DNA of 64,000 nucleotides from a bacterium (GTDB taxonomy: Bacteria > Patescibacteriota > Microgenomatia > UBA1406 > GWC2-37-13), in contig JAJYOJ010000003.1 in the NCBI GenBank assembly GCA_021796235.1, positions 1 to 64,000 of the forward strand, written 5' to 3'. Of this stretch, positions 6,262 through 57,816 are shown in pieces (the first letter of the stretch is position 1; each line of letters starts with the position of its first letter). The position numbers and the translations under genes are program-made. The notes below the pieces were generated by a model. It searched no databases and was not told where the DNA came from. It worked only from the letters and a program-made list of their open reading frames with translations.

Positions 6262-7632
6262 TTATTTTGCGATTTTAATCCCAAGCTCTTTCAGCTGCTT
6301 ATCGCTAGCTGGAGACGGAGCGTTCATGACGGACGTTCTTCCTCCTGATGTCATGGGATAAGGGATGACTTCTCTAAGCGATGGCTCGCCTGCGATACAG
6401 GTCAGCAGCCGATCAATCCCGGGGGCAATCCCTCCATGCGGAGGAGCACCATAGGAGAGAGCTTCAAGCATGTGACCGAACTTTAGCTCAATTTCATCCC
6501 TACTCAATCCCATAATTTCAAAAACAGCTCTTAAACCTTCTGGAGTGTGGTTTCTGATGCTCCCCCCACCGACTTCGTAACCATTGCAAACCAGATCGTA
6601 TTGGCTGGTAAGAAGGTTGGCGATGTTTTTTTTCTGCAAAAGGTCTTTCATATATTGCGGCAAAGGAGCAGAAAACGGATTATGAGTAAATGTCCAACCG
6701 CCTTCTCCGGTTTTCTCAAAGAACGGAAAATCAACGACCCAGGCAAAGGCCTGTATATTTGTTTTCTTTTCTTCTTCTGTCCTCAGATCAAACTTATCAG
6801 CGCCAAATTTAACAATTGCCTCTTTGTAAGAAAAAACAGGAAAAGGTTTTTTTTGCAGCGGAATTTGGAGTTTTTCATAGACTTCAACAATCATATCTTC
6901 AGTTATTTTCATTACATCCTCGCGCTCGACAAAACTCATTTCCAGATCGAGTTGTGTAAACTCTCCATAGGCTCGATCAGCTCGCGGGTCTTCGTCACGG
7001 AAACAACGCGCAATTTGGAAATAACGTTCAACTCCGGCAATCATAAGAAGTTGTTTATACTGTTGCGGCGATTGAGGTAGAGCATAGAAGTTGCCGGGTT
7101 GGAGTCGCGAAGGTACGATAAAATCACGCGCACCTTCAGGGGTAGTTTCGGATAAGATTGGCGTTTCGATTTCCAAAAAGTCCTTTTTTAAAAAAAACTG
7201 CCGGATTAAATCAATATATTTTGAACGAAGAGCAAGATTTTTGTAGAGCCTTGGTCTGCGCAGATCGAGGTAACGATATTTAAGCCTAACCTCTTCGTTG
7301 ATTTCATAACCGTCAGTGTTAACAGGTAAGGGAAGAGGCTTAGTTTTATTCAGTATCTTAACCTCTTTTGCCTCTATCTCGATTTTTCCGGTTTTAATTT
7401 TAGGATTAACCAGATTTTCTGGGCGCTTCTTGACTAAACCTCTAATCCAAACTACATCTTCACTGGTTAAATCTTTGAACTTTTCATCGCCTACGATTTG
7501 GACTATGCCGCTTCGGTCTCGGAGATCAATAAAAATGATTTTTTTATGATCGCGTTTGGAGTCAACCCAACCGTAGAGTTCGACTTCTTTACCAATTTTA
7601 TTAACAGTTTCTTCTACGAACAATTTTTTCAT
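6262..7632 (-). CDS. aspS: Aspartyl-tRNA synthetase, short form without GAD insertion
   Basis: Class II synthetase of 456 residues charging tRNA-Asp. Visible parts are the N-terminal OB-fold (GWVDSKRDHKKIIFIDLRDR), motif 1 (ETPEGARDF), motif 2 (FRDEDPRADR...EFTQLD) and motif 3 (GIAPGIDRLL). Bacterial AspRS is usually ~590 residues because of a GAD domain between motifs 2 and 3. Here the sequence passes straight from DKFDLRT to FAWVVDFPFFE, so that domain is missing. Whether it also charges tRNA-Asn cannot be told from the sequence alone. A strong promoter at 7641-7669 puts the start codon 8 bases after the -10 box. Confidence 0.95.
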   Translation of the reverse strand: MKKLFVEETVNKIGKEVELYGWVDSKRDHKKIIFIDLRDRSGIVQIVGDEKFKDLTSEDVVWIRGLVKKRPENLVNPKIKTGKIEIEAKEVKILNKTKPLPLPVNTDGYEINEEVRLKYRYLDLRRPRLYKNLALRSKYIDLIRQFFLKKDFLEIETPILSETTPEGARDFIVPSRLQPGNFYALPQSPQQYKQLLMIAGVERYFQIARCFRDEDPRADRAYGEFTQLDLEMSFVEREDVMKITEDMIVEVYEKLQIPLQKKPFPVFSYKEAIVKFGADKFDLRTEEEKKTNIQAFAWVVDFPFFEKTGEGGWTFTHNPFSAPLPQYMKDLLQKKNIANLLTSQYDLVCNGYEVGGGSIRNHTPEGLRAVFEIMGLSRDEIELKFGHMLEALSYGAPPHGGIAPGIDRLLTCIAGEPSLREVIPYPMTSGGRTSVMNAPSPASDKQLKELGIKIAK

Positions 7633-7640
7633 TAACTTTG

Positions 7641-7669
7641 ATTATAGCGCGTTAAACTCAACTTGACAA
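7641..7669 (-). promoter_or_regulatory. aspS promoter
   Basis: On the minus strand TTGTCA (7669-7664) and TATAAT (7646-7641) are separated by 17 bases. The ATG of aspS begins 8 bases beyond the -10 box, so the mRNA should be leaderless or nearly so. The -35 hexamer overlaps that of the plus-strand promoter at 7663-7690. Confidence 0.75.
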
Positions 7670-7690
7670 GGTTGATTTATCTGGTATCAT
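7663..7690 (+). promoter_or_regulatory. Divergent promoter of the structured leader
   Basis: Consensus TTGACA at 7663-7668 and TATCAT at 7685-7690 with a 16-base spacer and an extended TGG just before the -10 box. It shares its -35 region with the aspS promoter on the other strand. The expected start is near 7697. Confidence 0.6.
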
Positions 7691-7696
7691 GAAAAT

Positions 7697-7871
7697 TGAG
7701 GACCTCTAAAAGGCCCTTTTTTATAACGATGAGAAGAAATCAGTATCAACTTATTATTGTCTCCACGCTTGTCCACTTTAGGTGGAAGTGTGGGGTGGTT
7801 GGCGCTGAATTAAGAATTTAAAATTCAAAATTAAGAATTAAAAACCACCCCGCGAAAGACGGGGTTTTTTT
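7697..7871 (+). ncRNA. Structured leader or small RNA ending in an attenuator-like terminator
   Basis: About 175 bases lie between the plus-strand promoter and the ATG at 7872. Direct reading shows four pairings: a hairpin just after the start (GGACCT 7702-7707 with AGGCCC) followed by T6; a long hairpin with arms CCACGCTT 7763-7770 and AAGTGTGG 7786-7793 and an inner CCAC/GTGG; a 9-pair stem GGGGTGGTT 7792-7800 with AACCACCCC 7843-7851; and a terminator CCCCG 7848-7852 with CGGGG 7860-7864 followed by T7. The last two share CCCC, so they exclude each other, as in an attenuator. The family is unknown to me. Confidence 0.5.
7848..7871 (+). terminator. Intrinsic terminator abutting a start codon
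   Basis: Stem CCCCG/CGGGG, 7-base loop, then seven T (7865-7871). The ATG of the next frame follows at once. The GGGG arm could also act as a weak ribosome-binding site. Confidence 0.7.
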
Positions 7872-8168
7872 ATGAGTTTAGAAGATAGACGAATAATAAA
7901 AGACGGAAGAAATAGAACTCCACCGCTTTTTCATCCAGATTTGGGCAGACATTGGGAAAAAAAAGGTGACGCCGTAGCCCAGAGAGAACTATTCGGCTTA
8001 GGAATCGAGGAATATGTGCGTTATATGATGAGTCTAGGAGTCAACGAGGCTGATTCGAGGGAACAGTTTGAAGGAATGCATTCTGGTAACGTTTCGAGAA
8101 AAGAAGCGGCAAATTTACTAAATTTATTAGGCCACATTGCTCAAGCAGTTTCTCACTTCAAGATTTAG
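7872..8168 (+). CDS. Hypothetical protein, 98 aa, behind the leader RNA
   Basis: Unrecognised soluble protein (begins MSLEDRRIIKDGRNRTPPLF), charged at the N-terminus and helical towards the C-terminus. It has no cysteines and no membrane segment. Its ATG directly follows the T-run of the upstream terminator, so expression would depend on read-through or on the leader fold. The 3' end overlaps recJ on the other strand by 11 bases. I cannot assign a function; the unusual leader suggests conditional expression. Confidence 0.55.
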   Translation: MSLEDRRIIKDGRNRTPPLFHPDLGRHWEKKGDAVAQRELFGLGIEEYVRYMMSLGVNEADSREQFEGMHSGNVSRKEAANLLNLLGHIAQAVSHFKI

Positions 8169-9861
8169 AATCATCCATGTAAATAAGTTTGCTTCGCAAT
8201 TTTTCATTACCTCCCCATCTGTCGATTTCGAGCGAATAGACAATTTCGGTTTTCAAACCGCGGGAAAGCTCAGTAAAAAGTTTGGCGTTATTGAAAGAAA
8301 TAAGTTCAAGGGGGTCAGCGCTGATATTTGCATCTTTTACCAAGATTTTTAAGTGATTATTGGTTTTCCCGAAAAGTTTTGCCCCAACAATTTCTGCTTC
8401 ACTGTAAAATACCGGGTTAGGATTACCTATTCCAAAGGGTTGAAGTTTTTCCAGTTCCAGGGCGAGCCGCAAGTTTATTTTAGTAAGCGGAATTTTAAGG
8501 TCAGCTTCAATAGTTTTTTTAAGATCTTTTTCCGCGAGCAGCGAATCGGCTTTTTTTTGGGCTTTTTTTATAAAATCCTTAAGCTTATTTTTTTCCAGAG
8601 TAAATCCGGCAGCTCCTTTGTGACCGCCAACATCGATCAAATCAGCCTTTAGGCCCCGCAAAAAATCGGTAATGTGAAAACTAGGAATTGAGCGGGCAGA
8701 TCCTTTAAGAAAACCGTCGTTTTCGGTCAAAACAATTGTTGGTCTGTAATATTCCTCGGTAATTCTAGAGGCAATTAAACCTATTATTCCTTCATGCCAG
8801 TTTTCGTCTTCGAGGATAATAAGCTTAGGTAATTTTTTTTGTTTATCAACCGTTGCTTCGACGCGAAGGCGGGCCTCTTCAACCGCTTTTAAAACCAAAT
8901 CCTGTCTTTGCCTATTTTTTTTAGCGACGCGGCTGGCTAGATCGTACGCCTTATCCTCCCGTTTTGTACACAAAAGTCTTAAGGCATCAATTGCATGTTC
9001 GAGTCGACCCACCGCATTAATACGCGGCGCGATGATAAAACCGATATCATAGGGAGAAATTTTTTTATTTTCAATCCCGGCCTCTCGCAAAATATGACGG
9101 ATCCCGACGCGTTTTGTCTTGGAAAACCCTTGCAGGCCATAGTAAACAAGACTTCGTGATGGTCCGATAAGTGGAACAAGATCGGCAATAGTTCCGATTG
9201 AAGAAAGCGCCAAATAATCTATTTCAAAATTATCAGAAAGTACACCCTTAGGGTGTACAGGCTCGGAATGAAAATGATCATAAATCATTTTTGAAAAAAA
9301 ATAGGAAACGCCGGATCCGGAGAGGACCGGTATGTGGAATATCGCATAAGCATCGGTCGGGAGTTTATCCGGTTTGAGATGATGGTCGGTTATGATTATG
9401 GAAATGCCTAATTTCTTGGCATAGGTCACCTTTTCCCGCGCGGTGATTCCGTGGTCAACGCTAATTATTAATGCCGGATTAAACTGTTTTTTAACCGCGT
9501 CAATTCCCTTAAGTGAAAATCCATAACCTTCGAGTTTTCGGTGCGGAACATAGGGCATGGTTTTAAATCCCAAATTGTTTAGAGTTTCCCATAAAATTGC
9601 TCCACCAGTTATTCCGTCGGCATCGTAATCGGTATAAACGACGATCATTCGGTTTTCTTTTTTTATTTTTTCCAATAGTGCCAAAGTTTTTTTTATTTCT
9701 TTTTTAAAACCAAAGTCAGAGAGATTTATTGTGATCGGGGAGGGAGGATTGAAGAAGTCTTTTTCATTTTTAATTCCGCGGTTTTTTAAAAGTATTTGAA
9801 CAATTTCCTTTTCAGTTATTGACTCATTTTTTTTAATTTCGTGCTTATATTTTATTTTCAT
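8158..9861 (-). CDS. recJ: Single-stranded-DNA-specific exonuclease RecJ
   Basis: A 567-residue 5'-3' exonuclease of recombination and mismatch repair. The DHH catalytic half shows DYDADG (78-83), DHG (136-138) and DHH (159-161). These are followed by SIGTIADLVPL, the DHHA1 region (HEGIIGLIASRI and DVGGHKGAAGF) and a C-terminal OB-like domain. Metal ligands look intact, in contrast to the DHH-like protein at 10931. It is transcribed on the minus strand, downstream of a palindrome that separates it from rmuC. Confidence 0.95.
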   Translation of the reverse strand: MKIKYKHEIKKNESITEKEIVQILLKNRGIKNEKDFFNPPSPITINLSDFGFKKEIKKTLALLEKIKKENRMIVVYTDYDADGITGGAILWETLNNLGFKTMPYVPHRKLEGYGFSLKGIDAVKKQFNPALIISVDHGITAREKVTYAKKLGISIIITDHHLKPDKLPTDAYAIFHIPVLSGSGVSYFFSKMIYDHFHSEPVHPKGVLSDNFEIDYLALSSIGTIADLVPLIGPSRSLVYYGLQGFSKTKRVGIRHILREAGIENKKISPYDIGFIIAPRINAVGRLEHAIDALRLLCTKREDKAYDLASRVAKKNRQRQDLVLKAVEEARLRVEATVDKQKKLPKLIILEDENWHEGIIGLIASRITEEYYRPTIVLTENDGFLKGSARSIPSFHITDFLRGLKADLIDVGGHKGAAGFTLEKNKLKDFIKKAQKKADSLLAEKDLKKTIEADLKIPLTKINLRLALELEKLQPFGIGNPNPVFYSEAEIVGAKLFGKTNNHLKILVKDANISADPLELISFNNAKLFTELSRGLKTEIVYSLEIDRWGGNEKLRSKLIYMDDSKS

Positions 9862-57012: not shown

Positions 57013-57041
57013 TTGACCGCAGTTAATATGTATTATATAAT
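57013..57041 (+). promoter_or_regulatory. rplC promoter
   Basis: TTGACC 57013-57018 and TATAAT 57036-57041 with a 17-base spacer, a very strong match. Transcription should start near 57048 and lead into a ~90-base leader with an attenuator-like fold. Confidence 0.75.
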
Positions 57042-57068
57042 GTACCTCAATGTTACTCTTCCTTGTTC

Positions 57069-57138
57069 GGGAAACGGGTAGTTAATAACATTTTCGGTTT
57101 CCGGATTGGAAATATAAGCCCCAATCTGGGGTTTTTTT
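57069..57138 (+). promoter_or_regulatory. Attenuator-like leader of the ribosomal protein operon
   Basis: Three elements are readable. A stem GGAAAC 57070-57075 / GTTTCC 57097-57102 comes first. An anti-terminator stem GGATTGG 57103-57109 / CCAATCT 57121-57127 follows. The terminator is CCCC 57119-57122 / GGGG 57128-57131 with a 5-base loop and seven T (57132-57138). The last two overlap and so are mutually exclusive. The terminator ends 3 bases before the rplC ATG, and its GGGG arm is placed where a weak Shine-Dalgarno could act. This suggests autogenous or growth-rate control of the operon; no known ribosomal leader family was recognised. Confidence 0.55.
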
Positions 57139-57141
57139 ATT

Positions 57142-57816
57142 ATGTCAGGATTTATTTTAGGAGAAAAATCAGAGACAACTCAGGCTTTCAATGAACAAGG
57201 ACTGAGGATGCCGACTACGTATATTAAAACATCACCCTGTTATCTTATTGATGTTAAATGGGGTGAAAAGCATGGTTACTTCTCAGTCATGCTCGGTTTT
57301 GGCCAAACCCAAAATATTAAAAAATCGACATCAGGACAATTTACAAAAGCGGGGATGAAAACCCCGCTTCGTTTTTTACGCGAATTCCGTCTCGAAAAAT
57401 ATGGGGAAAAAATAAAGCTTCTTGATGAAAAAGGTAAAAAAGGAATCGAGTTTGGTGAGAACAAAATCTATATAGGCCAGGAAGTGAAACCGAGTTTAGT
57501 CTTCAAAAAAAATGATCTGGTAAATGTTTCCGGAACTTCAAAAGGAAAAGGATTTCAAGGTGTTGTAAAAAGACATCATTTTGCCGGCGGACCAAGGACT
57601 CATGGTCAATCAGATCGCGAAAGAGCCCCGGGAGCAATAGGTCAAACGACAACTCCGGGAAGGGTCTATAAAGGTAAAAGAATGGCCGGAAGAATGGGTG
57701 GAGGAAGAATAACTTTGAAAAATCTTAAGGTAATAGACGTTAAAGACGATGGACTTTTGATTACGGGTTTAGTCCCCGGAGCTCGGGGCGGGGTTTTGGA
57801 GGTTAGGAGTTTTTAA
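57142..57816 (+). CDS. rplC: 50S ribosomal protein L3
   Basis: 224 residues: the N-terminal globular part, then the long extension with KGKGFQGVVKRHHFAGGPRTHGQ split around its conserved glycines, GAIGQTTTPGRVYKGKRMAG, and a final VPGARGGVLEVR. It starts immediately after the terminator of the leader described at 57069-57138. It is the first gene of the S10-type cluster proper. Confidence 0.95.
   Translation: MSGFILGEKSETTQAFNEQGLRMPTTYIKTSPCYLIDVKWGEKHGYFSVMLGFGQTQNIKKSTSGQFTKAGMKTPLRFLREFRLEKYGEKIKLLDEKGKKGIEFGENKIYIGQEVKPSLVFKKNDLVNVSGTSKGKGFQGVVKRHHFAGGPRTHGQSDRERAPGAIGQTTTPGRVYKGKRMAGRMGGGRITLKNLKVIDVKDDGLLITGLVPGARGGVLEVRSF

Follow-up and report, generated by a model that had tools for sequence, protein, structure and literature searches.

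The subject of this analysis is a leader RNA and the 98-codon gene behind it, which lie in the gap between aspS and recJ in a 64,000-nucleotide stretch of a Microgenomatia genome (contig JAJYOJ010000003.1, positions 1 to 64,000). The whole stretch, contig C21 of a genome of 922 kb, is referred to below as the window. The gap measures 525 bases and is taken up by the leader and the 98-codon open reading frame (ORF). An earlier note, made from the sequence alone, had described a structured leader with mutually exclusive hairpins, laid out like an attenuator or riboswitch, before a gene of unknown role. Every element that it listed was found in the window; a short ORF inside the leader, a -35 hexamer shared with aspS, and the turnover of the downstream genes had been overlooked.

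The leader RNA in the aspS-recJ gap

The features of the locus are as follows.

6262-7632, minus strand: aspS, flanking the leader gap
7641-7669, minus strand: aspS promoter, -35 TTGTCA at 7669-7664 (the same bases as the plus-strand -35), -10 TATAAT at 7646-7641
7663-7690, plus strand: promoter of the leader and the 98-codon gene, -35 TTGACA at 7663-7668, -10 TATCAT at 7685-7690; position kept in relatives
7729-7821, plus strand: leader ORF of 30 codons, MRRNQYQLIIVSTLVHFRWKCGVVGAELRI, stop TAA; equivalents in 21 relatives
7740-7808, plus strand: hairpin 1:2 (anti-antiterminator), pairing 7740-7744/7804-7808, 7746-7751/7797-7802, 7761-7769/7787-7795 and 7772-7777/7781-7786
7789-7800, plus strand: segment 2 (TGTGGGGTGGTT), which forms the 5' arm of the antiterminator
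7804-7846, plus strand: A+T-rich spacer (antiterminator loop), of which 7807-7844 lies within a dispersed A+T-rich repeat family
7843-7854, plus strand: segment 3 (AACCACCCCGCG), which forms the 3' arm of the antiterminator and overlaps the 5' arm of the terminator
7847-7871, plus strand: intrinsic terminator, ACCCCGC...GGGGT plus T7, reaching the ATG of the gene
7872-8168, plus strand: putatively controlled gene, encoding a 98-residue orphan protein with no homolog or family
8158-9861, minus strand: recJ, on the other side of the gap

The good promoter proposed earlier is present as TTGACA-16-TATCAT, with 11 of 12 consensus positions and a TG ahead of the -10; it was said to stand face to face with aspS, but the two promoters are in fact divergent, back to back. 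The hairpin at 7763-7793 proved to be the core of the longer stem 7740-7808, and the 9-pair stem 7792-7800/7843-7851 part of a 12-pair antiterminator, 7789-7800/7843-7854. The terminator stem-loop (7847-7865, then T7) ends directly before the ATG at 7872 and has eight bases in common with the antiterminator. The leader ORF traverses the 5' hairpin and ends past segment 2. Copies of 25 to 38 nucleotides similar to the repeat at 7807-7844 (AATTAAGAATTTAAAATTC...) occur elsewhere in the genome, and matches turned up in 26 of the 57 genomes that were searched.

The 177-nucleotide leader has a predicted fold of -49.2 kcal/mol, compared with a mean of -36.7 kcal/mol for its shuffles (z = -3.4; 0 of 200 shuffles). 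With dinucleotide shuffles as the reference, the antiterminator gives p = 0.005, the lowest value that the test can return, and the p value for hairpin 1:2 is 0.015.

Conservation, partner swaps and predicted folding

The same gap was collected across the family, to which Candidatus Roizmanbacteria belongs, using aspS. In many relatives recJ follows aspS, with a gap of 21 bases at the shortest and about 3 kb at the longest. The full set of promoter, leader ORF, antiterminator and terminator is found in 22 genomes, including that of the window, and nearly always stands before a gene. As in the window, the T-run abuts or almost abuts the ATG in many relatives. The genome with the closest aspS relative (G090, AspS 84% identical) has kept the promoter and leader with another gene behind them; G005 has two such leaders, both beginning MLALFQHIIL..., and decayed copies are found in G091 and G080. 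Three class-wide pattern matches outside the family, one of them in G260, were not counted as members. The G260 match (L288, about 1380-1620, in another family) lies where an apparent TrpR/YerC-like protein (identified by eye) ends in a YQLI-containing stretch; behind it come an antiterminator and a terminator similar to those here, and the arrangement may have some connection with how the leader arose.

Because the leaders align badly, we chose an alignment-free swap test, in which the pairing of each species' arm with its own partner is compared with its pairing with the partners of other species. Over the 22 leaders, own partners gave -19.1 kcal/mol for helix 1:2 versus -14.2 kcal/mol for swapped ones, -15.8 versus -13.0 kcal/mol for helix 2:3, and -11.8 versus -10.3 kcal/mol for helix 3:4, with 0 of 20,000 permutations in each case; after near-duplicates were dropped the counts became 0, 0 and 1, respectively. 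Orthologous regions, which the earlier note had suggested collecting, support all three helices in this form of covariation test. The outer pairs of helix 1:2 read UCAGU-A-UCAACU/GGUUGG-C-GCUGA in the window, UAUCAACC/GGUUGAUA in G015 and CUUAUCA/UGAUAAG in G061. The swap tests took the place of first helix statistics that missed bulged helices in some relatives. MAFFT misaligned the arms, and a covariance model was therefore dropped; alignment A3, with a few shortened or edited sequences, backs no claim made here.

These tests bear on the idea that an A+T-rich repeat, sitting beside a common GC-rich terminator, pairs upstream by luck. It is true that the spacer 7807-7844 is part of a dispersed repeat family and that these genomes commonly contain GC-rich terminators shaped like this one, but the pairing arms lie almost entirely outside the repeat and both the swap and the shuffle tests disfavor such an artefact, which we find scarcely credible.

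The predicted folds depend on where the ribosome stands. When wholly free, the window leader is predicted to form hairpin 1:2 and the terminator (-42.4 kcal/mol); with the ribosomal A site at codon 8, 10 or 12, the covered part being removed, it is predicted to form the antiterminator, and with the ribosome at the leader stop the terminator again. Of 1000 shuffled versions of the window leader, 2.4% show this three-state behavior. For 12 of the 22 leaders, versus 2.3% of shuffles, the terminator is predicted without a ribosome and the antiterminator with a ribosome at codon 10. Computation shows that the elements are present and conserved, that partners covary and that three folding states are predicted.

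From these observations the following sequence of events is proposed. RNA polymerase would begin at the 7663-7690 promoter, and translation of the leader ORF would be initiated by a ribosome at 7729. Without a loaded ribosome, segments 1 and 2 would pair (7740-7808), leaving segment 3 to pair with segment 4, and transcription would terminate at T7 before the gene. A ribosome slowed around codons 8 to 12 would hold segment 1, so that 2:3 pairs (7789-7800/7843-7854), the terminator is blocked and the 98-codon gene is transcribed. A ribosome that reaches the stop codon would cover segment 2 and allow the terminator to re-form. The gene would therefore be on when the leader is initiated but slowly translated. 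In cells, stalled elongation would act as the trigger, and we infer amino-acid shortage or a general inhibition of translation as the signal.

The leader at 7729-7871 is very probably a ribosome-mediated transcription attenuator, rather than a riboswitch. What characterizes such attenuators is found here: a short translatable ORF, alternative helices that covary and, as a prediction only, a ribosome position that sets the fold. Orthologous loci, conserved geometry and the partner-swap covariation of three helices that exclude one another back the attenuator before a gene of unknown role. Of the two readings left side by side in the earlier note, the attenuator is favored and the riboswitch disfavored because every counted ortholog has a translatable ORF through the hairpin and no Rfam family reaches threshold. 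The Rfam search, another suggestion of that note, returned only tRNA and weak look-alikes at gathering and permissive thresholds, the best sub-threshold scores lying far under the gathering scores; at the gathering score, tRNA was the only hit in the window and the leader had no match among riboswitches, T-box or ribosomal-protein leaders. In a metabolite riboswitch the 5' hairpin would be an aptamer that controls the terminator and the ORF would be incidental. A structured leader, alternative helices and a terminator beside the ATG would suit any transcriptional riboswitch, but apart from the lack of an Rfam match, the hairpin sequence beyond a UAUCAA core is unconserved, unlike an aptamer core, and the ORF and the position of its stop persist through variation in loops, stem lengths and sequences, which makes this reading highly improbable.

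The locus might also encode a constitutive small RNA or small peptide, with leader and terminator standing alone and the 98-codon ORF uncontrolled or unreal. The transcript would then be discrete, about 175 nucleotides long and ending at T7, and the lack of homologs of the ORF would fit. However, a gene begins near the T-run in most relatives, often immediately behind it, and a conserved antiterminator would have no evident purpose without a downstream gene; we regard a stand-alone RNA as improbable.

Several points weigh against the attenuator. The switch is not predicted in 10 of the 22 leaders, and minimum-energy folding leaves these members unexplained because five prefer the antiterminator even when free and five keep the terminator throughout. 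The "at stop" state is nearly built in, because segment 2 is masked in it. The choice of leaders relied in part on inspection by eye or on the antiterminator criterion; this, together with relatedness among the species, makes combined (binomial, Fisher) p-values optimistic, the swap test being affected less but not immune. The relatives that bear names are metagenome assemblies. To these is added the lack of any single-residue codon run common to the 22 leaders, for which reason no signal is named.

The leader reading frame and its possible signal

In all 22 leaders the stop codon lies at -2 to +33 nucleotides from the start of segment 2; the chance product for this position is 7e-13 for 17 of the 22, with ATGs chosen by us. 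Isoleucine (1.6-fold) and tyrosine (1.8-fold) are the residues most enriched relative to shuffled ORFs. Codon 7 encodes glutamine in 13 of the 22, mostly after tyrosine or phenylalanine. Codon 6 starts 16 nucleotides from the start codon, and the footprint of an initiating ribosome ends about where this codon begins. Either the outer 1:2 pairs, through their geometry, or the nascent peptide could account for the fixed position of codons 6 and 7.

The latter would make the leader a nascent-peptide or drug-sensing sub-type of attenuator, in which [YF]Q at codons 6 and 7, and not an amino-acid shortage, would stall the ribosome together with a ligand or antibiotic, as in the erm, msr and toiL leaders. 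The pair keeps a constant codon distance from the start although the remainder diverges, the leaders share no amino-acid run, and toiL of Escherichia coli is a multipurpose upstream ORF of this kind (PMC12121999). On the other hand, the nucleotides of [YF]Q also take part in the outer 1:2 pairs, opposite a partner that covaries, so that pairing of the RNA may by itself account for their conservation, and the downstream genes include no resistance gene or family of the kind that follows drug-sensing arrest leaders (erm, msr, cat). We consider this sub-type rather unlikely. For the attenuator without it, candidate signals are a general slow-down of translation or a shortage of isoleucine or aromatic residues. 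A codon run for a residue tied to the downstream gene, the mark of an amino-acid-specific attenuator, is absent here and present at thrS of the lineage.

Downstream genes, other leaders and the wider lineage

The aspS-recJ gap is a variable slot, and filled gaps hold different genes in nearly every species, including some for NUDIX-containing proteins. For the 98-residue protein of the window, no homolog was found in 57 genomes, GTDB genome contigs, viral contigs, Pfam, NCBIfam, PHROGs or PDB; its single-sequence AlphaFold model is all-helical and of low confidence (predicted local distance difference test, pLDDT, 57). The other proteins behind the leader are mostly unrelated orphans, with two loose groups, namely the NUDIX-containing protein of G087 with those of G017 and G019, and the proteins of G079, G029 and G083. 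A relation of some of them to RelA/SpoT, suggested by eye, was dropped after Pfam and PDB gave only a NUDIX domain in one.

On the aspS side, TTGACAA at 7663-7669 reads as a -35 element on both strands, with -10 spacings of 16 (leader) and 17 (aspS). A shared -35 with the aspS-side spacing of 17, scoring at least 20 of 25, occurs in 15 of 44 loci versus 0.8% of shuffles. A polymerase at one promoter would exclude the other, and the aspS mRNA is probably nearly leaderless, because its -10 ends 8 nucleotides ahead of the ATG. Bidirectional promoters of E. coli likewise combine divergent transcription, overlapping elements and one polymerase at a time (PMC12825309), but those are described as pseudo-symmetrical sequences, whereas here one -35 hexamer appears to serve both strands with separate -10s.

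The thrS genes provided a positive control. Thr-run leaders, defined as short ATG ORFs with at least three threonines in five codons, were found in 12 of 30 thrS upstream regions (shuffles: mean 0.3, maximum 2), and the next residue, lysine, reaches 4; examples are MKKEIKFTTTTIS, MNKYILINTTTTFSC and MITFFSITTTTFS, and the window genome's own is MKIISCESLTATTGPLFLRR. In this genome (L132:15715-17620, minus strand; G000:C14) and at least 11 relatives (L178-L207), such a leader is accompanied by alternative helices and a terminator upstream of thrS.

Other leaders of similar appearance were noticed. Phe/Tyr-run leaders with antiterminator and terminator precede transaldolase, a PfkB-like kinase (by eye) and unknown genes in relatives; a Phe/Tyr run followed by proline is seen in NYYFFFYP, NNFFFFTP, FFFYFYP and FGFFYFTP at L093, L094 (the same as L006), L012 and L030. 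At 57040-57141 in the window, a 13-codon ORF (MYLNVTLPCSGNG) is accompanied by what may be an antiterminator, GGATTGG/CCAATCT, and by a terminator immediately ahead of an rplC-like gene (by eye; 57142-57816); this is likely an attenuator or ribosomal-protein leader. Two more attenuator-like leaders of this genome, MKKMNSINGSLHHHPLFAG (L099:7745-7900, minus strand) and MQSKVLSCFYLIFINR (L104:13209-13400, minus strand), precede genes of unknown function for 243 and 756 amino acids, respectively.

The trp, his, thr and pheA/pheST attenuators are ribosome-mediated (PMC1183508), and the leader described here resembles them in its ORF near the promoter, its alternating helices 1:2, 2:3 and 3:4 and its intrinsic terminator before the gene. 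Unlike them, it has no single-residue run and no link between leader codons and downstream gene, its 1:2 hairpin is very long and encloses most of the ORF, its terminator abuts the ATG without an intervening ribosome-binding site, and its downstream genes vary by species. With the toiL upstream ORF of E. coli topAI-yjhQ (PMC12121999) it would share the use of ribosome position on a leader ORF to report translation stress and the control of an accessory small-gene locus; toiL works through ribosome-binding site occlusion and Rho, in contrast to the intrinsic terminator and antiterminator here. Attenuators that serve non-homologous genes, and "mobile attenuators" (PMC2965389), also place one attenuator type before unrelated genes, but the present one sits in a single fixed chromosomal slot, where promoter and leader ORF are conserved.

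A literature search for leader-peptide attenuation in Patescibacteria, Microgenomates or the Candidate Phyla Radiation found none, which is weak evidence, with subscription journals mostly outside its scope. Patescibacteria have tiny genomes and are mostly unculturable, and little is known of their gene regulation. Comparative evidence indicates that at least one of their families uses ribosome-mediated attenuation, in a Thr-specific form at thrS and a mixed-codon form at the aspS-recJ slot. More tentatively, this Microgenomates leader-peptide switch might be a general translation-stress sensor for a fixed "plug-in" slot, in which promoter and leader are kept, the accessory gene is replaced and each initiation chooses aspS or the accessory gene via the shared -35. 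The exact leader sequences supplied here are suited to reporter testing, and a constant switch before changing orphan genes would offer a handle on orphan function, as genes wanted during slow translation.
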